A stretch of DNA of 64,000 nucleotides from an uncultured Chitinophaga sp. (GTDB taxonomy: Bacteria; Bacteroidota; Bacteroidia; Cytophagales; Cyclobacteriaceae), in contig CABHOK010000008.1 of NCBI GenBank assembly GCA_902168205.1, forward strand, positions 124,001 through 188,000, written 5' to 3'. This document shows, piece by piece, positions 18,425 to 29,123 of this stretch (position 1 is the stretch's first letter; each line of letters opens with the position of its first letter). The position numbers were made by a program, and so were the translations under genes. A model generated the notes under the pieces. The model searched no databases. It saw only the letters and a program-made list of their open reading frames with translations, and was not told the DNA's origin.

Positions 18425-20236
18425 ATGGAATTTTGTCTTCTTATGTTTTTACGTATTTTTCCAACGGTTAAAAGTCTCTCCCTCAGTATAATTCTAACCG
18501 TAAACTTTTTGAGACCTGTGGATCGATTTATAGGCTTATCCGCCAGACGGATTTTCGCAAGCCTGTTGTTGTTACTTCTCGCACTTCCGTTAAGAGCACA
18601 GCAGGATTCGCTGATGAGTATCCTGGAAACAGAACTCACCCGCAGTATGCAAGAGCTGAAGAAAGCAGCAACTCCGGCATACTATATAGACTATCGTGTC
18701 CATGATGCACACTATGCCAGTCTGCGCGCTACATTCGGAAGCCTCATTCATTCTGTTACCAATCGTAACCGTATACTCATGACGCGTGTAAAGGTTGGCG
18801 ATTACAAACTTGACAATACGCATCCGCCCGAACCGGGTGAGATGAATTATAGTGCCGGCTATGGCGGCTTCGGGCGCACCATGCTTCCCTATGAAAACAA
18901 CCCCATCGCTATCCGTTATAGTATATGGACAGCCACGCAGACGGAATACAAGCAGGCGCTGGAGGCTTACAAAGCGGTGAAGACTGCTTCTGAGCAGCCA
19001 GGCAATAAAGCTTCCACTGTACCAGACTTTTCGCAAGAACAGCCTGCATCCTTTACGGAACCTCCTGCCAAACCGCTTGCCGCGATCTTCAACGAATCGC
19101 TCTGGCAACAGAAGGTAAAGAAGTACTCGGCACCTTTCCTTCAGAATAAAGATCTGATTGATGGCGATGTAAGTCTCAATATAGTTACCGAGCGCAAGTA
19201 TTTTATCTCGAGCGAAGGAACACACATAACACAAAACAATACGGCAGCATACCTGAACATAACAGCGAGCATACGTGCTGCCGATGGTGATATCGTTCCG
19301 CTTCACCTCTCCTACTATGCCGCAGTACCCGATGCCTTGCCTGCCGATGAAAAAATTCTGGCGGATGTAGAGCGTATGATCTCAACTTTAAAGAAACTGC
19401 AGAACGCTCCGCTGGCGGAACCGTATAGCGGTCCGGCAATTTTACTGGCGCAGACTGCCGGTGTATTCTTCCATGAAATCTTTGGACATCGCATTGAAGG
19501 ACATCGCCTGCGGAATGAATTTGACGGACAGACTTTCAAAGCCAAGGTTGGTGAAAGTGTATTGCCCAAAACACTGAATGTATACTTTGATCCTACAGTT
19601 AACACGGTGGACGGCAAACCGGTGAATGGCGGATTCCTTTATGATGATGAAGGTATAAAAAGCCAGCGCGTTACCGTTGTAGAGAAAGGTATATTAAAGA
19701 ACTTCCTGATGTCGCGTACTCCGCTGGAGAACTTCGCTCATTCCAATGGACACGGACGAGCTTCTGTTGGCGCTTCCCCGGTATCCCGTCAATCCAACCT
19801 GATTGTGGAAGCTGTGAAGCCGGTGTCCATGAGTGATCTGCGCAAAATGCTTATCAAGGAGTGTAACCGCCAGGGAAAATCATACGGCTACCTGTTTAAA
19901 GATGTGGTGGGCGGGTTCACCATTACGGACCGGTATAATCCGAATGCGTTCAATATCTTCCCGACTGAAGTATACCGCATCTATACCGATGGGCGTCCGG
20001 ATGAACTGGTGCGCGGAGTTGACCTGATCGGTACACCACTCGCCATGTTTGCAGAGATACAAGCCGCTGCGAATGATCGCGATATATTTATAGGTTTCTG
20101 CGGAGCGGAGTCCGGCAGTGTACCGGTAAGTGCAGCATCGCCATCACTTTTTGTCAGACGAATTGAAACGCAGAAGAAGCCGAAAGAGCATGTAGACTCT
20201 ACGTTGCTGGAGCGCCCGGGTTCTTCCAATCCTTAA
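18425..20236 (+). CDS. TldD-like metalloprotease with signal peptide
   Basis: The 603-aa frame carries the zinc motif HEIFGHRIEGH (HExxxH, near residue 352) of TldD/PmbA peptidases, followed by the family blocks around FDGQTFKAKVG and FLMSRTPLENF, and ends in a TldD C-terminal domain with IYTDGRPDELVRGVDLIGTP. E. coli TldD is cytosolic, but here a signal peptide (RRIFASLLLLLLALPLRAQ) is present at residues 41-59. The long N-terminal lead makes the ATG at 18425 suspect. A GTG at 18518 would put the signal peptide at a normal distance. The partner TldE-like gene begins 10 bp downstream. Together they would form a heterodimeric periplasmic peptidase. Confidence 0.88.
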   Translation: MEFCLLMFLRIFPTVKSLSLSIILTVNFLRPVDRFIGLSARRIFASLLLLLLALPLRAQQDSLMSILETELTRSMQELKKAATPAYYIDYRVHDAHYASLRATFGSLIHSVTNRNRILMTRVKVGDYKLDNTHPPEPGEMNYSAGYGGFGRTMLPYENNPIAIRYSIWTATQTEYKQALEAYKAVKTASEQPGNKASTVPDFSQEQPASFTEPPAKPLAAIFNESLWQQKVKKYSAPFLQNKDLIDGDVSLNIVTERKYFISSEGTHITQNNTAAYLNITASIRAADGDIVPLHLSYYAAVPDALPADEKILADVERMISTLKKLQNAPLAEPYSGPAILLAQTAGVFFHEIFGHRIEGHRLRNEFDGQTFKAKVGESVLPKTLNVYFDPTVNTVDGKPVNGGFLYDDEGIKSQRVTVVEKGILKNFLMSRTPLENFAHSNGHGRASVGASPVSRQSNLIVEAVKPVSMSDLRKMLIKECNRQGKSYGYLFKDVVGGFTITDRYNPNAFNIFPTEVYRIYTDGRPDELVRGVDLIGTPLAMFAEIQAAANDRDIFIGFCGAESGSVPVSAASPSLFVRRIETQKKPKEHVDSTLLERPGSSNP

Positions 20237-20246
20237 TCTTTACATC

Positions 20247-21914
20247 ATGCTACAGAAGACATTATTATATAGCTATATACTTGTACTGGGGATCACCATT
20301 TCCGTACGTGCTCAAAGCAATGAGCCGGTGATCCTGCGGGCCATGCAGGATGAACTGAAGCGAAGCATGACGGAACTGAAATACGAAGGCCATGAAGCTC
20401 CGTTCTTTATCAGTTATGGTATAGCAGATGTTACCAATTATAGCGCATATGCCATACTCGGTGCATTGGTACAGTCGGGTGAGTATAAGAATCGCGATAA
20501 GTCTGTGCGTATACTCGTGGGTAATTATGAGTTTAACGATGAGAGTCTGAATAACAATTCGTACAATGAGAAGAACTCTGCCGAAGTTGCTCTGCCTACT
20601 GACGATGACTACAATGGTATAAGACGCGCGCTCTGGGCTACTACCGATGCTGTATATAAAGGCGCAGCAGAACAGTATAAAAAACATCAGGCAACGCTAA
20701 AGGAAAAAGATAAAAAGATAGCCGATGTACCGCACCGTGAACTAGCGAAAGTTCCGGTAGTGAAGAAGATCGAAGCGATCAAGTCCTATTCACTCGATAA
20801 AGCTAAATGGGACAATTACTGCCGGCAGCTATCAGCAGTCTTTACGGCTTACCCGGATCTCAAATCATCCAAGGTATCGATCAACATTTCGCAAGGCACA
20901 CAGTACTTTGTGAACAGCGAAGGCACTACCGTTGTGATTCCGTTTACCCGGGCCACGCTGCACTGCCGTATCGAAGCTAAAAACAAAAATGGTGATTCAG
21001 CATTCGATAATATAGGTTACCAGGTAAACGCACCCGATGATCTTCCGCCTATCGAAAAAGTACAGGCCGAAGCAAAGTCTATAGCCGAACGCTTATTGAA
21101 AAGCGGAGATGAAATTACACTGGAGGATGACTACACTGGTCCGGTGTTATTTATAGGTGCCGCCACTGCGCAGATATTCTCCAATATATTCCTGACTTCC
21201 CGCGATGGATTGATGGCCACAGACAACATTCCGAATATAAATGAAAATCGCCAGGATGCAGGTAATACGATGGATAACCGCATCGGCAAAATCGTTCTGG
21301 ACAATAGTATCAGTATATATGCGCGTGCTCCGCTTCATGAATTCAATGGCGAAACCTTGCTTGGTTCTTATAACATTGATGAAGAAGGTGTAGTACCGGC
21401 CGATCAGCTTGTGCTGGTAGAGAAAGGTACATTAAAGAATCTGATGAACGATCGCTCTATATCACGTCCCGGACAAACCGCTACCGGCCATGCCAACGGT
21501 CCGGGGGTACTGGAGGTTGTGAGCGATAAAGGTATATCACAACAAGCACTCAAGCAGGCATTGATTGAGACAGCACGCAAGGAAGGACTTGACTTCGCAA
21601 TCATTGTGAGAGAAAGCTCAGAGTCCGTTCAGGGTGTTTCACAATTCTATAAAGTGGATCTTACTACCGGGAAAGAAGAGTTGATGCGCAGAGTACGACT
21701 GAGCTCGGTTGCGTTAAAAAACCTGAAACGTATTGCTGGGATCAGTAAACAACAACGCGTATATACCAGTGACGTAGGAAGCAACGGACTTGTCTCATTC
21801 ATTGTACCGGATGCTCTGCTGTTGAACGATATGGAGTTATCGCCTGTACATATACCGGCACGCGAACCGGATGTTACCTATATCGAGAGTCCGCTTAAGA
21901 GCATACAGAACTAA
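20247..21914 (+). CDS. TldE/PmbA-like partner protein with signal peptide, no zinc motif
   Basis: A 555-aa paralogue of the upstream gene. It has its own signal peptide (LLYSYILVLGITISVRAQ) and the same opening block (LRAMQDELKRSMTELK compare LETELTRSMQELKK). At the position of the HExxxH motif the sequence reads ATAQIFSNIFLTSRDG (residues about 309-324), so no metal ligands remain. This is the TldE/PmbA situation: a non-catalytic subunit that completes the active site of TldD. The C-terminal half has the DEEGV, LVEKGTLKNLMNDRS and TGHANG family blocks. Ends ahead of the hairpin at 21921-21952. Confidence 0.85.
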   Translation: MLQKTLLYSYILVLGITISVRAQSNEPVILRAMQDELKRSMTELKYEGHEAPFFISYGIADVTNYSAYAILGALVQSGEYKNRDKSVRILVGNYEFNDESLNNNSYNEKNSAEVALPTDDDYNGIRRALWATTDAVYKGAAEQYKKHQATLKEKDKKIADVPHRELAKVPVVKKIEAIKSYSLDKAKWDNYCRQLSAVFTAYPDLKSSKVSINISQGTQYFVNSEGTTVVIPFTRATLHCRIEAKNKNGDSAFDNIGYQVNAPDDLPPIEKVQAEAKSIAERLLKSGDEITLEDDYTGPVLFIGAATAQIFSNIFLTSRDGLMATDNIPNINENRQDAGNTMDNRIGKIVLDNSISIYARAPLHEFNGETLLGSYNIDEEGVVPADQLVLVEKGTLKNLMNDRSISRPGQTATGHANGPGVLEVVSDKGISQQALKQALIETARKEGLDFAIIVRESSESVQGVSQFYKVDLTTGKEELMRRVRLSSVALKNLKRIAGISKQQRVYTSDVGSNGLVSFIVPDALLLNDMELSPVHIPAREPDVTYIESPLKSIQN

Positions 21915-22872: not shown

Positions 22873-23769
22873 TTATATAGCACGATTTATCTGCTCGCGA
22901 AATTGCTCGGGTGTAACACCCGTTTGCTTTTTAAAGAACCGGATAAAGTACGATGGCTCGCTGAAATTGAGTTTATCAGACACCTGGCTGATGGTGAGAT
23001 CCGAATAGGCAAAGAACCGTTTTGCTTCGAGGACAATCCGTTCCTGGATGAGATCGCTCAACGTTTTTCCCAACATCTGCTTGCATAAATTGTTCAGGTA
23101 CGATGCTGACAAATTCATCAGCGAAGCATATACATGCGGTTGTTTGTGTTCACTGTAATGCTGATCGATGAGCTCGCCCAGCATGCGAAGTTTATAGGTG
23201 CTATTAGAGGATGCAACACTCTTGTTTCGCTGCGGATAATGACTTGTCAGCTTGAGTAAAATGATATCGAGGTAACTGCGAAAGAGTTGCAGGTTTAGCG
23301 ACCCGGTTGATGTATAGTCACGCAACATCTCACGGATAATTACATCGATCATCGGCTCTGCATTTGTTTTGAGCTGAAGATGCGCATCGGTGTTAAGCGA
23401 TTGAAAGAACGGAAAACCCAGCAAATGTTTTTCACTCTTGTCAAGCTGATAAAACTCGGATGTAAAGAAGAGTATAAAACCATCTGCATCGGCACTGAGC
23501 TTCCACGAATGCACCTGGCCAGGAGTCATCAGGAAGAAACTGTTGGGAGCAACCGGGTAGGTAACAAAGTCTATCGTATGTTCACCACTCCCCTGCGTAA
23601 TATATAGCACCAGGTAGAAATCATGACGATGCGGTTTGCTGATGAATGGATGTTGCTTGAGGTGACCTTTGAGTGTCTCAATGTAAAAAGCATTTTCCTT
23701 TGCTTTCTCACTAAATGTATCCAGACAATATACCGGTGTCTCTGTTTTTTCCCGTGAGCGTTTTGTCAT
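22873..23769 (-). CDS. AraC-family transcriptional regulator
   Basis: The 298-aa protein has an N-terminal cupin-like sensor domain (HRHDFYLVLYITQGSGEHTIDF near residues 47-68, then a PGQVHSW motif) and a C-terminal AraC double helix-turn-helix (about 200-298) ending with ISQVSDKLNFSEPSYFIRFF and KQTGVTPEQFREQ. It lies 93 bp beyond the end of the katA-hemA-hemH-ank run on the same strand, so it may regulate that run. The inducer is unknown. Confidence 0.9.
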   Translation of the reverse strand: MTKRSREKTETPVYCLDTFSEKAKENAFYIETLKGHLKQHPFISKPHRHDFYLVLYITQGSGEHTIDFVTYPVAPNSFFLMTPGQVHSWKLSADADGFILFFTSEFYQLDKSEKHLLGFPFFQSLNTDAHLQLKTNAEPMIDVIIREMLRDYTSTGSLNLQLFRSYLDIILLKLTSHYPQRNKSVASSNSTYKLRMLGELIDQHYSEHKQPHVYASLMNLSASYLNNLCKQMLGKTLSDLIQERIVLEAKRFFAYSDLTISQVSDKLNFSEPSYFIRFFKKQTGVTPEQFREQINRAI

Positions 23770-23862: not shown

Positions 23863-24372
23863 CTATTGCAGCAACGCTATAACCGCTTCGTTCTGTTGAA
23901 GTTGAGCATGTTGCAGTGCAGTCTTACCGGTATTGTCCGTTAAAGCTTTGTTCGCTCCGGCTTTCAACAAGAGTTTTACAATTTCAGTGTGACCAAAGGT
24001 CGCAGCAAAAATAAGCGCAGAAGCACCGTTGTAATTTACCTGGTTAACATCCGTGTGATTTTGAATGAGTAATGCGGCCATGTCCGTATACCCGCGAAAA
24101 CATATACCCATCAGCGCAGTGTTACCCATTAGGTCTTGTTTGTTCGGGTTGGCCTTTGCTTCTAATAGCATTCGGGCTGCATCTGCCTGGTGATTATAGA
24201 CAGCGATGATCAATGGCGTTGAACCACGCTGGTCGGTTGTATCAACGGATGTACGCTGATGTATATAGTGCTGCAGTAACTTCACATCATTATTACGGGC
24301 TGCCGAAAATATATCCTGGCTTTTTCCCAATGTTGACGCAAGAAGTATAAGAATTGTGATGCGGAATATCAT
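23863..24372 (-). CDS. Exported ankyrin-repeat protein, catalase partner type
   Basis: A signal peptide (FRITILILLASTLGKSQ, residues 2-18) is followed by four to five ankyrin repeats of about 33 residues, for example GSTPLIIAVYNHQADAARML, GNTALMGICFRGYTDMAALL and GASALIFAATFGHTEIVKLL. It starts 5 bp after the hemH stop and is the last gene of the katA-hemA-hemH-ank run. Small ankyrin proteins next to catalases (AnkB with KatB in Pseudomonas aeruginosa, Cj1386 with KatA in Campylobacter jejuni) are needed for full catalase activity, the latter by helping heme reach the enzyme. The same role is likely here, in the periplasm. Confidence 0.85.
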   Translation of the reverse strand: MIFRITILILLASTLGKSQDIFSAARNNDVKLLQHYIHQRTSVDTTDQRGSTPLIIAVYNHQADAARMLLEAKANPNKQDLMGNTALMGICFRGYTDMAALLIQNHTDVNQVNYNGASALIFAATFGHTEIVKLLLKAGANKALTDNTGKTALQHAQLQQNEAVIALLQ

Positions 24373-24377
24373 ATATA

Positions 24378-25472
24378 TTAATTCAGGGAAATATCCAGTT
24401 TTGTTAAAGGGACGATTTTAGATCCGGCAGCAGATGTCGGTATAGCTGCATCAATCGCCAGTTCGCGCAGCAGTTGTATCCATACGGGGTTTGTATTGAG
24501 CGATGGGACAAGATCAAGCGTTCCTCCGTATTGCTGATGAAACATATCTTTATACTCTTCACCAATCTCAATAGTTGTCTCAAGGCAATCTGCTACAAAG
24601 GCCGGAGAAAATACCAGTATCTTTTTCTTGCCTTGCATTCCGAATGCGTCAATAACATCGTGTGTATAAGGGCCTGTCCACTCCTCGCGCCCCAACCGTG
24701 ACTGGAAGCTGGTGACGGCGCGTGTAACCGGAAGTCGCAACGCGCGGGCTATCCGTTGTGTGGTGCGGACACATTGAGCGCGGTAGCAATATTCATTGTC
24801 GGCCGTGATACGCTCGCAGTACTCACACAAGGTATTGAGACAAACATGATCGCGTGTACCCGCTCCCAACTGACTCTTGGGAATACCGTGATAGCTGAAT
24901 ATAAAGGCATCGTACGTTGCTATATTTGTATGGCTCTTCGCGATGGATGTAAAAGCTTTAGAAAACAGCGGAGCGTCATAGAACTTATCAACAAATGTAA
25001 TCTTCGGTATTACCGCCCAGCGACTGACAATACGCATTACTTCCTGCACAACGGAGCCACTCGTAGCCGAAGCATATTGCGGGAACAACGGAATTACTTT
25101 TATAGAGGAAAATCCTTTGCTTTGGATTTCAGTCAATATACTTTCAATAGAAGGCTGCTGATAGCGCATGGCCAGGTATACCTCGTATTCATCGCCCAGT
25201 GCCAACTGCAATTTAGCAGCCACCTCCTGCCCTGTGCGAATCAACGGGAATGAATTTCCATTCCATATAGCACGATACGCTTTCGCGGATTTACGGGACC
25301 TGAATGGAGCGATGACCAGGTTAACCAGCATCCATCGGAAGAGATAGGATTTATTAATCACTCTTCCATCCATCAAAAACTGCCGAAGGTATCTTCTCAC
25401 ATCACCAACCTTTGGCGATAATGGCGAGCCCAGGTTCACCAGCAGTATAGCCTTTTTATTCATAGTCTTCAT
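24378..25472 (-). CDS. hemH: Ferrochelatase
   Basis: A 364-aa ferrochelatase that inserts ferrous iron into a porphyrin, the last step of heme synthesis. It shows the family opening AILLVNLGSP, the active-site stretch FSYHGIPKSQ near residue 190 (His ligand), and a C-terminal CLETTIEIGEEYKDMF with the conserved acidic residues. The first residues are MKTMNKK, so the start may be 25472 or the second ATG at 25463. It follows hemA by 28 bp and precedes the ankyrin gene by 5 bp, so it is part of one unit. It is probably an additional, catalase-dedicated copy, which cannot be tested from this window. Confidence 0.92.
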   Translation of the reverse strand: MKTMNKKAILLVNLGSPLSPKVGDVRRYLRQFLMDGRVINKSYLFRWMLVNLVIAPFRSRKSAKAYRAIWNGNSFPLIRTGQEVAAKLQLALGDEYEVYLAMRYQQPSIESILTEIQSKGFSSIKVIPLFPQYASATSGSVVQEVMRIVSRWAVIPKITFVDKFYDAPLFSKAFTSIAKSHTNIATYDAFIFSYHGIPKSQLGAGTRDHVCLNTLCEYCERITADNEYCYRAQCVRTTQRIARALRLPVTRAVTSFQSRLGREEWTGPYTHDVIDAFGMQGKKKILVFSPAFVADCLETTIEIGEEYKDMFHQQYGGTLDLVPSLNTNPVWIQLLRELAIDAAIPTSAAGSKIVPLTKLDISLN

Positions 25473-25500
25473 TGTAAAGTATATATTGAGATCAACTCCG

Positions 25501-26520
25501 CTAAACAGTTTGCAGGACTGATCGTGTCTTATGTCGTGATGCTAGCCATTGTACGAAGACCGCCTTCTCTTCTTCTATAATTTGTCGGGCCGGTGCCACG
25601 GCTTGTGCCTGCAACGTGTCGTGCAGGTCGCGCTCTTTGCCGAGATCATCCAGTGAGAAAAACGTATAGTCTTCCGGTTGTTGCAGATCAATACTTTTAT
25701 AGGTGGTGAGATCAATGAGCACAGGTGCCTGTTCCGGCTGCAATTGGTCACTGGTAATTATACCTTTCAGAGATGCACACGACACAACAACATCAAACGC
25801 ATACAGGTTCTCCTGAAAGCGATCGAACGGAATGGTATTGCAATGAAAGCGTGTAGCCAGTGCGTGGGCACGTTCGGCTGTGCGGTTTGTTATCGTTACG
25901 GGATAACCTTTGGCTGTAGCATACTTCATAAAGTCAGCAGCAATCTCGCCCGCCCCGATCAACAGGATTGAAACATACTCAGCCGGACGTTGAATTACCT
26001 TCCGGATCTTCCTGACGGCAATGAAACTGATGGATGTAGAACCCGTATGCAGCGATGTCTCATTGTGAATACGCTTGTAACTTCTGAACACAGTCTGGAA
26101 CAAACGCTCCAGTAATGTGGTGATTTTTCCGGCCTCCATACTTTCACGGTATGCGGTCTTGACCTGCGCAATGATCTGTTTATCGCCCATCACCATCGAG
26201 TGTAGTCCATTGGCAACTTCCATGCTATAGCGTGCACTGTCATGCGGTGTTGTAATAACTTCGAATAAATGCCAGGGTATATTGGTGCCTTTACGTACTT
26301 GCATCCCGTGGATAAATTCCTGCGGTGAAAACTCAGCGCTTGTCTCCAGGTAAAATTCAGTGCGGTTGCAAGTGGAGAGTACAACGCCTCCTTTCAATCC
26401 GGGTATAGTATGCAAATCAGTATACCATTGCTTCCGTTCTTCTTCGTTGAATTGAAAGGCAGCGCGTACGTCCAGTACGGCATGTTTATAGGATAGTGAC
26501 AGTATAGTGATCGTGTTCAT
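25501..26520 (-). CDS. hemA: Glutamyl-tRNA reductase, short form
   Basis: Glutamyl-tRNA reductase makes glutamate-1-semialdehyde, the first committed step of C5 heme synthesis. The catalytic Cys51 sits in STCNRTEFY, the GxGxxA-type NADPH motif in LIGAGEIAADFMKYA near residue 186, and a GDKQIIAQVKTAY block near 133. At 339 aa it is about 80 residues shorter than usual: it stops just after the FVQWLASR motif that normally begins the helical dimerisation domain. It lies 59 bp after katA with a hairpin between, and 28 bp before hemH. No aminotransferase (hemL) is nearby. Confidence 0.9.
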   Translation of the reverse strand: MNTITILSLSYKHAVLDVRAAFQFNEEERKQWYTDLHTIPGLKGGVVLSTCNRTEFYLETSAEFSPQEFIHGMQVRKGTNIPWHLFEVITTPHDSARYSMEVANGLHSMVMGDKQIIAQVKTAYRESMEAGKITTLLERLFQTVFRSYKRIHNETSLHTGSTSISFIAVRKIRKVIQRPAEYVSILLIGAGEIAADFMKYATAKGYPVTITNRTAERAHALATRFHCNTIPFDRFQENLYAFDVVVSCASLKGIITSDQLQPEQAPVLIDLTTYKSIDLQQPEDYTFFSLDDLGKERDLHDTLQAQAVAPARQIIEEEKAVFVQWLASRHKTRSVLQTV

Positions 26521-26532
26521 GGTATAGTAAAG

Positions 26533-26563
26533 GGCTGCCTGCCGGTATAGATTACAGGCAGCC
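26533..26563 (-). promoter_or_regulatory. Hairpin in the katA-hemA junction
   Basis: A perfect 9-bp GC-rich stem GGCTGCCTG/CAGGCAGCC with a 13-nt loop fills the 59-bp gap after katA. There is no T-run on the minus strand, so it is more likely an mRNA-processing, stabilising or partial-attenuation element that lets katA be expressed more strongly than hemA-hemH-ank than a full terminator. Confidence 0.5.
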
Positions 26564-26579
26564 GTTTATCAAAGTGTGT

Positions 26580-28100
26580 TTATCTGAAAAGTTTTTCTAC
26601 TTCTTCGCGTGTAAGCTTAAGAGATGCCGCCAGGCGCTTGCCATAGTCCGCATCGGCCATGTAGAAATAGCCGACCATCTTTCTTACTACATCTTTATTT
26701 TGTACTTGTGCGAGATCGCCCGTGAGGTTCTTGATCAGGTTGGTCTTGTCTTTTTCAGAAAGACTTCTGTAAAACTCTCCTGCCTGTTTAAAGTCATTCG
26801 GCTTGCTGATCTTCTGCTGTACACTGGCCGTATTGGTAAATGTACTTTGTGAATATTTATACTGGCTGTCGTCCGGTAAATTGCTGCTCGTAACCGAAGG
26901 CTGATAATTTACATCCGAGTTCTTCTGACGGTTGCTATAGGCTCCATCCTGGTTGTTGGAGGTTACAGCTACTTTCGGAGCATTTACCGGTATCTGTTGA
27001 AAGTTCCCTCCTATACGGTGACGTTGCGTATCGAAATATGAAAAGAGACGACCTTGTAAAAGTTTATCTTCCGAAGGTTCTATACCCGGCACCAATGTCC
27101 CCGGAGCAAAAGCAGATTGCTCTACTTCGTCAAAGAAATTACCGGGCACGCGATTCAACGTCATCTTACCCACAAGTGTTAATTTAGCGACCTGCTCCGG
27201 CCATACTTTGGTAGGATCAAGCGGGTTGAAATCCAGCTTTTCAAATTCAGAAGCTTTCAACTGCTGAACATACAATTCCCACGAAGGATAATTTCCTTTT
27301 TTAATGTTTTCGTATAGGTCTACCGTTGCGTGCTGGAAATCCTGCGCCTGCACCTTGGCAGCTTCTTCCGCTGTAAGCGTGCGTACACCTTGCATACTCT
27401 TCCAGGTATATTTCACGTAGGTAACTTCGCCTTTCGCATTTACCCACTTGAATGCATGTACACCGGAGCCGTCCATCTCGCGATAGTTGGCTGGTATACC
27501 GAGATCAGAGTATACACGCGTCAGCATGTGGGTTCCTTCCGGTACATGCGAAAAGAAATCAAACACCCGGTTCGGGTCCTGTTTATTATAGATGGGTGAT
27601 GGCTTAAACGCATGCACCATATCCGGGAACTTCATGGCATCGCGAATAAAAAATACTGGCAGGTTATTGCCCACTAAGTCATAATTACCTTCATCGGTAT
27701 AGAACTTGGTAGCGAAGCCTCTGGGGTCGCGAAGTGTTTCCGGAGAACCATTACCATGTACTACCGTTGAGAAGCGTACAAATACCGGAGTCTTCTTTCC
27801 TTTCTCATTCAGAAAAGCAGCACGTGTTACGGTTGAAAAATTGTCGGCCGCAACGAACTCGCCATACGCGCCGGCACCGCGGGCATGTACAACGCGTTCA
27901 GGAATACGTTCACGATCAAATGCAGCAAGCTTTTCAATGAGATGAATATCTTCCAGCAGAACCTGACCATTTTGTCCAACAGTCTTGGAGTTTTGATTGT
28001 CACCAACCGGAGCACCGGTATTGGTTGTTAAATGTTGCTGGGCATTGACGCCTAGCGCCAGCAGTAAACCTCCTGTTACAAGGAGAATTCTTTTGTTCAT
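26580..28100 (-). CDS. katA: Exported monofunctional heme catalase
   Basis: A 506-aa small-subunit heme catalase decomposing hydrogen peroxide. Catalytic His72 in ERVVHARGAGAYG, Asn145 in YDLVGNNLPVFF and the heme-ligand Tyr in RLFSYFDTQRHR (near 355) are all present. The C-terminal region has a Gln/Asn/Ser-rich linker around 385-425. A signal peptide (RILLVTGGLLLALGVNAQ, residues 4-21) sends it to the periplasm, which is unusual for clade 3 catalases. It is the first gene of the run katA-hemA-hemH-ank, so heme supply and an ankyrin partner are encoded with it. I found no clear -7 box in the 150 bp upstream. Confidence 0.95.
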   Translation of the reverse strand: MNKRILLVTGGLLLALGVNAQQHLTTNTGAPVGDNQNSKTVGQNGQVLLEDIHLIEKLAAFDRERIPERVVHARGAGAYGEFVAADNFSTVTRAAFLNEKGKKTPVFVRFSTVVHGNGSPETLRDPRGFATKFYTDEGNYDLVGNNLPVFFIRDAMKFPDMVHAFKPSPIYNKQDPNRVFDFFSHVPEGTHMLTRVYSDLGIPANYREMDGSGVHAFKWVNAKGEVTYVKYTWKSMQGVRTLTAEEAAKVQAQDFQHATVDLYENIKKGNYPSWELYVQQLKASEFEKLDFNPLDPTKVWPEQVAKLTLVGKMTLNRVPGNFFDEVEQSAFAPGTLVPGIEPSEDKLLQGRLFSYFDTQRHRIGGNFQQIPVNAPKVAVTSNNQDGAYSNRQKNSDVNYQPSVTSSNLPDDSQYKYSQSTFTNTASVQQKISKPNDFKQAGEFYRSLSEKDKTNLIKNLTGDLAQVQNKDVVRKMVGYFYMADADYGKRLAASLKLTREEVEKLFR

Positions 28101-28769
28101 AAAATGACCGATTAAGGATTGTTTTTAAAATTATACCGCCTCAAAAGTGGACAATCTGCTGCCTATAGATCAAAGCGATTTTATTTATCGCACGATAGGC
28201 AATCTCTATGAAGAGGGGAAAACGTACCGCAAATGGTGAAATAACTGCGAGAAGGGAAAAGCTGCTGGCTTCAGGCCGCAAGTTTGATAGTGGTGAGTGC
28301 TCGTGATTACTGTTAATTATATAGCTGCGAGCTGCGAGAAAAAAATGCCTGCGCTAATTAGCTGAAGTATAACCTGTAGATAAACAACTAGCTAGAAGCT
28401 AACAGCTTTTAATTACTTTGCAGCGATATGAGGTTTCTTTTAGTTGCGTTCCTGGCTTAGGAAATACCGTTTACTTGGTGTTTGCTACTAAGAACATGTT
28501 CTAAAAATTAAGCTACCAGGCCAGTGGCCAGCTACCAGTTGATTATCTGTTGGCTATGATTTTGGCAAGGAGAAATGTTTCTAACGTTGAAGCTATATCT
28601 TAATTTTGCGGCTATATATTTAGTGACGTTCACAAGCAAGGCTTGCAGCCGGACGCCAATAGTCTGTGGCCTTTCCTCTCGCAGCTCAAAGCTCGCAGCT
28701 ATATATTTAGCAGCGGCCACCGCGTCTGAACGCCAATCAAGCTTGCAGCCAGAAACCTGTAGCCAGTAG
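28101..28769. repeat. Gene-free region with dispersed agct-rich repeats
   Basis: No credible gene in these 669 bp. From about 28255 on it is made of words such as tagctgcgagctgcgaga (near 28321), gctcgcagctatatatttag (near 28690), ggctatatatttagtgacg (near 28609) and cttgcagccagaaacctgtagccag (near 28743). Relatives of these words, in both orientations, fill the gaps at 43765-43968, 47812-47935 and 49038-49110. The block looks like several partly decayed copies of a short dispersed repeat. The left 100 bp must hold the katA promoter, which I could not pin down. Confidence 0.5.
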
Positions 28770-29123
28770 CTATTTCAGCGCTTCGCTATGCGTTTGAATG
28801 ATGTGCGTGATTTCGGCATGTGTAAAGCCAAGCTTCTCGCCTACCATGGTGATGAGTTCTATTTCGGCTGGAGCAAAGTCTCCGTCAACGAGGGCGAGTT
28901 CGATCATGTCTTCGAGTTGCTTTTCGCGCTCGAGGTTATTTTGAGGAATGAGAAAGCGATACTCATGGCCACGTTCCAGCATGAGGTTGAAACGGTCTAA
29001 AGGTATACCAAGTGTATAGGCTATCTTAAAGAGTGCAACGCGTTCAACTTCTTCAATTTTGCCATCGGCTGTAATCAGCGAAACGAGGTTTCTGAAGTGT
29101 TCAAGTTTGATATTGTCAATCAT
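28770..29123 (-). CDS. TerB-like (tellurite resistance TerB superfamily) protein
   Basis: The 117-aa protein is all helical with the repeated acidic motif of TerB-type folds: ITADGKIEEVERVALFKIA near residue 18 and ALVDGDFAPAEIELITMVGE near 78. I place the start at the ATG with complement 29121-29123; the in-frame extension to 29270 encodes a Cys/Arg-rich stretch that does not look coding. TerB-like domains bind metal or calcium and act in membrane-linked stress responses, but the role of this stand-alone protein is unknown. It lies 58 bp downstream of purT. Confidence 0.75.
   Translation of the reverse strand: MIDNIKLEHFRNLVSLITADGKIEEVERVALFKIAYTLGIPLDRFNLMLERGHEYRFLIPQNNLEREKQLEDMIELALVDGDFAPAEIELITMVGEKLGFTHAEITHIIQTHSEALK

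Follow-up and report, generated by a model that had tools for sequence, protein, structure and literature searches.

AnkB of Pseudomonas aeruginosa is reportedly a periplasmic ankyrin protein required for full activity of the catalase KatB; we know of no heme-biosynthesis genes in the KatB-AnkB unit, and, to our knowledge, the KatA-Cj1386 unit of Campylobacter jejuni comprises neither hemA nor hemH. Heme genes belong to the OxyR regulon of Escherichia coli and the PerR regulon of Bacillus subtilis, where they are the ordinary copies and not paralogues inside a catalase operon. Here we describe a cluster of four genes, katA, hemA, hemH and ank, within a stretch of 64,000 nucleotides (the window; contig CABHOK010000008.1, positions 124,001 to 188,000) from an uncultured Chitinophaga sp., in which an exported-type catalase and an exported-type ankyrin protein are encoded together with paralogues of glutamyl-tRNA reductase (HemA) and ferrochelatase (HemH). 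We put the probability at about two in three that this is a peroxide-induced operon which raises the heme supply for its own catalase, with the ankyrin protein helping to load the heme.

Ankyrin proteins are needed for catalase activity, according to passages of PMC7567364 and PMC11442138. KatB-AnkB likewise combines a catalase with a periplasmic ankyrin protein in peroxide defence, as far as a title cited in PMC7567364 and PMC10294975 tells. Similarly, Cj1386 is a small ankyrin protein serving a catalase, and the family described here has an invariant tyrosine; a section of PMC11442138 describes Cj1386 as heme-binding, with Tyr57 as ligand, and as cytoplasmic, whereas the protein encoded in the window is of exported type. 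In Leptospira interrogans, a periplasmic catalase and an ankyrin protein are likewise encoded in one peroxide-induced operon, ank-katE, but the heme genes, although induced in parallel, form a separate operon which is not under the control of PerR (part of PMC7567364). Peroxide regulators that raise heme synthesis alongside catalase also appear in an excerpt of PMC8115020, by which OxyR of E. coli induces hemH and hemF and PerR of B. subtilis controls hemAXCDBL together with katA. In the open-licence literature searched, no description of hemA or hemH inside a catalase-ankyrin operon was found. What seems to be new here is a HemA line inside a catalase operon, with HemH repeatedly present, while the catalase-ankyrin system itself was already known.

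The four genes of the window follow one another on the minus strand with gaps of 59, 28 and 5 bp, and an araC gene lies 93 bp past ank. Coordinates, strand and protein families agree with the original prediction, which had been made from the letters of the window, and the signal peptides that it had assigned to the catalase and the ankyrin protein correspond to signal-like hydrophobic starts, called here and throughout by a crude hydrophobicity rule and not by SignalP. Elsewhere, the 7.3-Mb genome (20 contigs) encodes one catalase (729 aa, without a signal-like start), one HemA of 431 aa and one HemH of 335 aa; hemA and hemH of the operon are therefore additional copies, as had been suspected, and not the only ones. 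Similarly, two or three hemA genes were found in all 16 genomes searched out of the 17 with katA-hemA (the Mucilaginibacter genome was not among them), and two hemH genes in all eight searched out of the nine with an operon hemH. The genomes whose operons have hemA and lack hemH (G292, G296, G237, G1051 and G1064) have one hemH each. A single hemA is present in eight of nine genomes with katA-ank only, the exception being G077 with three; a single hemH is likewise present in eight, and G204, which is 77% complete, yielded none. The extra hemA and hemH probably reside in the catalase cluster to couple production of the cofactor to that of the enzyme requiring it.

The arrangement is shared by relatives: hemA directly follows katA in 17 loci, 16 of them with ank, nine with hemH and eight with the full order katA-hemA-hemH-ank, which bears out the conserved unit that had been proposed. 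Within the genus of the window, an operon-type HemA is present in four of seven genomes, and the operon was seen at all four loci, with katA of G295 cut at a contig end; in G292 and G296 hemA is directly followed by ank. The exported KatA proteins form a clearly separated group, scoring at least 818 bits where all other listed catalases reach at most 655 (390 genomes of the taxonomic order). Exported KatA occurs in 13 of these 390 genomes, with adjacent ank in 12, hemA in eight and hemH in five, and in four of 395 genomes of the phylum, where two of the three besides the window have an adjacent ank. When named genomes were scanned with the ankyrin alignment and the best 80 loci taken, 48 had an exported-type KatA beside ank, among them loci of Flavobacterium, Chryseobacterium, Empedobacter, Pedobacter and Chitinophaga, and 11 had a KatE. 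The hemA-bearing loci of this set belong to three Pontibacter species (P. silvestris additionally with hemH), one Mucilaginibacter metagenome-assembled genome, Cellulophaga sp. BC115SP (as filed) and one further contig. A neighbouring catalase-ankyrin pair was also met in two Proteobacteria plasmid records; a Cj1386-like search of plasmid records yielded no Campylobacter among 60 of 435 records. Exported katA and exported ank are thus the core, found in many Bacteroidota, to which the heme genes are optional additions, since hemH is absent from two of the four operons of the genus.

Despite diverged surroundings, the block upstream of katA is alike in three members of the genus and comprises ATAG-N7-CTAT, which we take to be the classical OxyR half-operator, with TTTG and a -7 element of the TTTG type coming after it, a possible promoter of the Bacteroidota consensus. 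We scanned 76 loci for the motif, of which 62 remained after omission of 11 KatE loci, L333, L167 and L270. An exact OxyR-type site is present within 160 bp upstream of 20 of these 62 exported-type katA genes, where 0.3 are expected under a first-order Markov null, although the corresponding P values are too small because the upstream regions are related. Seventeen of the 20 sites lie between -86 and -109. The site precedes 10 of the 15 katA operons with hemA, and only one of 51 upstream regions of housekeeping hemA, hemH and katE. In addition, a divergent ORF of 306-313 aa precedes katA in 12 of the best 80 named loci; for all eight LysR-type neighbours sampled (four of these 12 ORFs and those of L263, L267, L274 and L333) the OxyR model scored best, each time under its cut-off. 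The genome of the window has an OxyR-like gene (306 aa, 44% identity to the one of L133) away from the operon. OxyR is hence the likely regulator of the katA operon, judged from these sites and neighbours. The AraC-family regulator was provisionally set aside in this role: its gene adjoins the operon in all four carriers of the genus and was recognised nowhere else among the 17 katA-hemA loci, whereas OxyR-like neighbours and the OxyR-type site recur. A sigma-70 scan showed no excess (10 sites against 11.1 expected from shuffles).

The AlphaFold2 model of the ankyrin protein shows an ankyrin fold (pLDDT 95.2). All 99 ankyrin proteins compared have Tyr59, although the ankyrin consensus varies at this position; the residue was outside the search patterns, but the sequences had been gathered by likeness to rows bearing it. 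The conservation of F92 and F126 says less because both were part of the search patterns. Tyr59 may match the heme ligand Tyr57 of Cj1386 and is a candidate for the same role. With respect to localization, 71 of 76 neighbouring catalase-ankyrin pairs are concordant for signal-like starts (59 with both, 12 with neither); of the five disagreeing pairs, three involve catalase ORFs that lack their own 5' end, and two are weak calls. Five duplicate loci (L123, L184, L266, L271 and L273) had been dropped from this count, and the rule had been revised after a first pass, to admit N and to anchor the stretch by the alignment; by the first rule, L141 and L143 were among the disagreeing pairs. For L105, the partner had been changed from the closest catalase, a convergent one without signal at 23 bp, to the exported KatA that lies on the opposite side at 67 bp. 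A Fisher value for the agreement would be unfair as a probability because of the relatedness of the pairs and because 11 of the 12 without signals involve a KatE, eight of these 11 on the opposite strand. Among 23 ankyrin proteins without a counted catalase partner, a signal-like start is present in three, L053 (katA cut), L059 (of G198) and L199. Export of folded KatA by the Tat route was rejected, as none of 69 KatA rows fits the twin-arginine pattern; some of these rows are duplicates or partial ORFs, and one, from L105, is a cytosolic catalase. We further observed that signal-less ankyrin proteins of the same family adjoin a large KatE in Mucilaginibacter, Pedobacter and others (loci L163, L164, L166, L168, L171, L182, L187, L190, L192, L194 and L198).

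A second locus of genome G494 (L333) comprises an OxyR-like gene divergent from katA-hemA-hemH-ank, with neither the catalase nor the ankyrin protein having a signal-like start; the nearest rows to this ankyrin protein in a quick tree are exported ones. Because this version has the full gene order without signal-like starts, the presence of the heme genes appears to be tied to the catalase and not to export. A counter-case to the shared compartment of catalase and ankyrin protein is G198. The strongest alternative confines the ankyrin protein to stabilising or protecting KatA, with no part in handling heme, and has hemA and hemH serve heme proteins in general under peroxide. Stabilisation of the catalase in its proper conformation is one published proposal, found in part of PMC10294975, and, as an excerpt of PMC8115020 has it, induction of hemH in E. 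coli keeps heme synthesis running. However, hemA and hemH sit between katA and ank and not in a general stress cluster, and Tyr59 is invariant at an otherwise variable position; we therefore regard this explanation as possible and yet rather doubtful.

Profile searches of the window HemA detected the GlutR_N domain, which has the catalytic Cys, and the NADPH domain, and did not find the dimerisation domain PF00745; at 199.4 bits, the protein stays under the cut-off of the NCBIfam hemA model (209.55). Its identity to the listed HemAs outside the genus is 25-34%. The AlphaFold2 model (pLDDT 93.5) matches 1gpj with a TM score of 0.83. PF00745 was likewise not found in HemA of G292, G296, G198, G193 and the Mucilaginibacter copy, but was present in that of G1064, BC115SP, G072 and P. 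lucknowensis; counting G494, just under the cut-off, this makes five of ten checked, and four of eight in the HemA set A3. It might be argued from the divergence, the low model score and the missing domain that the operon HemA is an inactive regulatory or scaffolding homologue, for instance a binder of heme or of the housekeeping HemA. We hold this to be unlikely, as 16 of 19 operon-type rows keep the pattern (S/T)TCNR(T/M/S)E, with a split frame accounting for one of the three that do not, all 23 aligned rows share T50, C51, N52 and R53, half of the copies checked have the dimerisation domain, and hemH, a plain enzyme with intact motifs, joined the same catalase unit more than once. Shortness of HemA does not define the module, since most operon HemAs reach about 400 aa or more.

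In a tree of 72 rows, 18 operon-type HemAs fall on one side of a branch and 54 others on the other (SH-aLRT 99), and in a larger tree of 77 rows the operon-type branch is supported by 98; both are quick trees without bootstrap, for the 72-row tree the program issued a warning of long branches meeting at the operon-type split, and the non-operon HemAs are those gathered by our earlier HemA searches, not a random sample. The split frame of G1061 was left out of both trees, and the long rows L326, L320 and L050-L052 also out of the smaller one. A hemA of G077 (C15, 344 aa) at first taken for the operon type grouped among the other HemAs in the 77-row tree and was relabelled for the 72-row tree. 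The operon-type branch includes G198, with ank and without katA, and G193, where neither was seen. One HemA line thus appears to have travelled together with the catalase unit. Apart from this, the three members of the genus without the operon encode a very divergent HemA with about 21-22% identity to the housekeeping HemA (L056:7297-8568 in G291, L057:7132-8391 in G294 and L058:7273-8583 in G293), adjoining chemotaxis genes: CheW, CheD and CheB in L056 and a methyl-accepting chemotaxis protein (MCP) in all three; the MCP of L056 also has a bacterial globin domain, and none was detected in those of L057 and L058.

The HemH of the window is a full-length PF00762 protein with its catalytic motifs and passes the NCBIfam model (229.1 against a cut-off of 124.6). 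The operon HemHs are scattered over the tree, as those of the window genus, those of Pontibacter silvestris and G1061, and those of G286, G446, G072 and G494 with the G198 copy, while that of G307 is weakly placed; a single clade is rejected (approximately unbiased (AU) test, p = 0.0027), where the G198 HemH beside katA had been put into the operon group after the tree had been viewed. As the operon HemHs do not form one group, hemH would have joined the catalase unit more than once or been replaced. A merely passive neighbourhood, with heme genes brought in by rearrangement and functionally unlinked to the catalase, would fit hemH missing from half of the genus operons and the solitary HemA of G193, but is highly improbable given this repeated joining or replacement and a HemA group that immediately follows katA in genomes spanning four family codes, as well as in named genomes from other groups.

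A number of observations weigh against a peroxide-induced operon supplying heme to its own catalase. Five of the 15 operons with hemA (L065, L103, L106, L140 and L263) and the cytosolic L333 have no OxyR-type site within one mismatch, two occurrences of the motif in the window, against 1.23 expected, are by themselves not significant, and the counts of signals and motifs are phylogenetically non-independent. Among the 48 exported-type katA-ank loci just six have hemA, and 42 have none between the two genes; 21 of the best 80 ankyrin loci have no full-sized catalase ORF within 4.2 kb. In G1061, an exported KatA was found with a split hemA frame and no ank recognised in the stretch covered, as was the case for the 4.4-kb contig of G907, with exported KatA and no ank recognised there. 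In G193, no catalase or ankyrin gene was seen near the operon-type hemA on a short contig, and in G198 the exported-type ank lies beside a short hemA, the only catalase found being of cytosolic type and elsewhere. Finally, the operon holds no gene for a heme exporter, and the activity of the short HemA as a reductase is predicted from its sequence. In G198, the module appears in two parts, an OxyR-like gene with hemH and the cytosolic-type katA at L274:2721-6563, and the short hemA with the exported-type ank at L059:7721-9505.

We infer the function of the operon as a whole from comparison of sequences, and propose the following course for a peroxide-induced operon that serves its own catalase. 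Under hydrogen peroxide, OxyR would switch on katA, hemA, hemH and ank jointly. The extra glutamyl-tRNA reductase would raise entry into the pathway and the extra ferrochelatase its last step, and heme supply would therefore rise with catalase synthesis. KatA and the ankyrin protein would leave the cytoplasm unfolded via the Sec pathway, heme would traverse the inner membrane through a pathway that lies outside the operon, and the periplasmic ankyrin protein would bind KatA or pass heme on via its tyrosine, as proposed for Cj1386. The dedicated module of the original prediction is retained with regard to the conserved unit, the extra hemA and hemH copies and the exported-type catalase with its ankyrin partner; its further claim that the module moves heme out is not supported, as no exporter is encoded in the operon and the G494 version is all-cytosolic.

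Two additional features were noted around the operon, whose parts are listed in Table 1. Positions 18425-21914 of the window encode two TldD/PmbA-like proteins that have signal-like stretches close to their N-termini; their homologues adjoin the operon in G292, G295 and G296. The gap upstream of katA contains direct and inverted repeats at 28310-28770, with arms at 28310-28338 and 28685-28713 that are 86% complementary.

Table 1. Features of the katA-hemA-hemH-ank locus, in coordinates of the window.
Feature	Position	Strand	Description
katA	26580..28100	-	exported-type monofunctional heme catalase, 506 aa; PF00199 6e-173, PF06628 3e-21
KatA signal-peptide-like N-terminus	28041..28100	-	residues 1-20, ending VNA|Q; hydrophobic stretch; no Tat motif
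hemA paralogue	25501..26520	-	glutamyl-tRNA reductase, 339 aa, without dimerisation domain; STCNRTE kept
hemH paralogue	24378..25472	-	ferrochelatase, 364 aa; PF00762 3.5e-89; SYHGIP and FVADCLET kept
ank	23863..24372	-	exported-type ankyrin-repeat protein, 169 aa; Ank_2 1.3e-27
Ankyrin protein signal-peptide-like N-terminus	24319..24372	-	residues 1-18; hydrophobicity rule
Tyr59 codon of ankyrin protein	24196..24198	-	candidate heme ligand; invariant in sequences examined
araC	22873..23769	-	AraC-family regulator gene, 93 bp downstream of ank
OxyR-like site ATAGAGATTGCCTAT (ATAG-N7-CTAT)	28195..28209	-	conserved upstream block and motif scan
Possible promoter	28142..28174	-	TTTG 28171-28174 (-33), CACTTTTG 28142-28149 (-7); parts kept in upstream alignment of three genus members

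More speculatively, the operon-type HemA might be a catalase-dedicated reductase that was freed from the controls on the housekeeping HemA, with the dimerisation domain lost in several lineages, and that makes up, jointly with the ankyrin protein and the HemH that was recruited, a private heme line running from the first precursor up to the active site of the catalase, whichever the compartment; we regard this as a tentative idea with the odds against it. According to a 2024 review, CydDC and CcsBA are the carriers that serve cytochromes in the periplasm; the review also lists a few heme-trafficking proteins, which are called cytoplasmic (PMC11442138). In general, little is known about how heme is delivered to b-type enzymes outside the cytoplasm. 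The operon described here puts supply (HemA and HemH), client (KatA) and candidate loader (the ankyrin protein) on one short, movable piece of DNA that can be taken apart gene by gene, and its relatives offer versions with and without each of the heme genes, and one with cytosolic partners.

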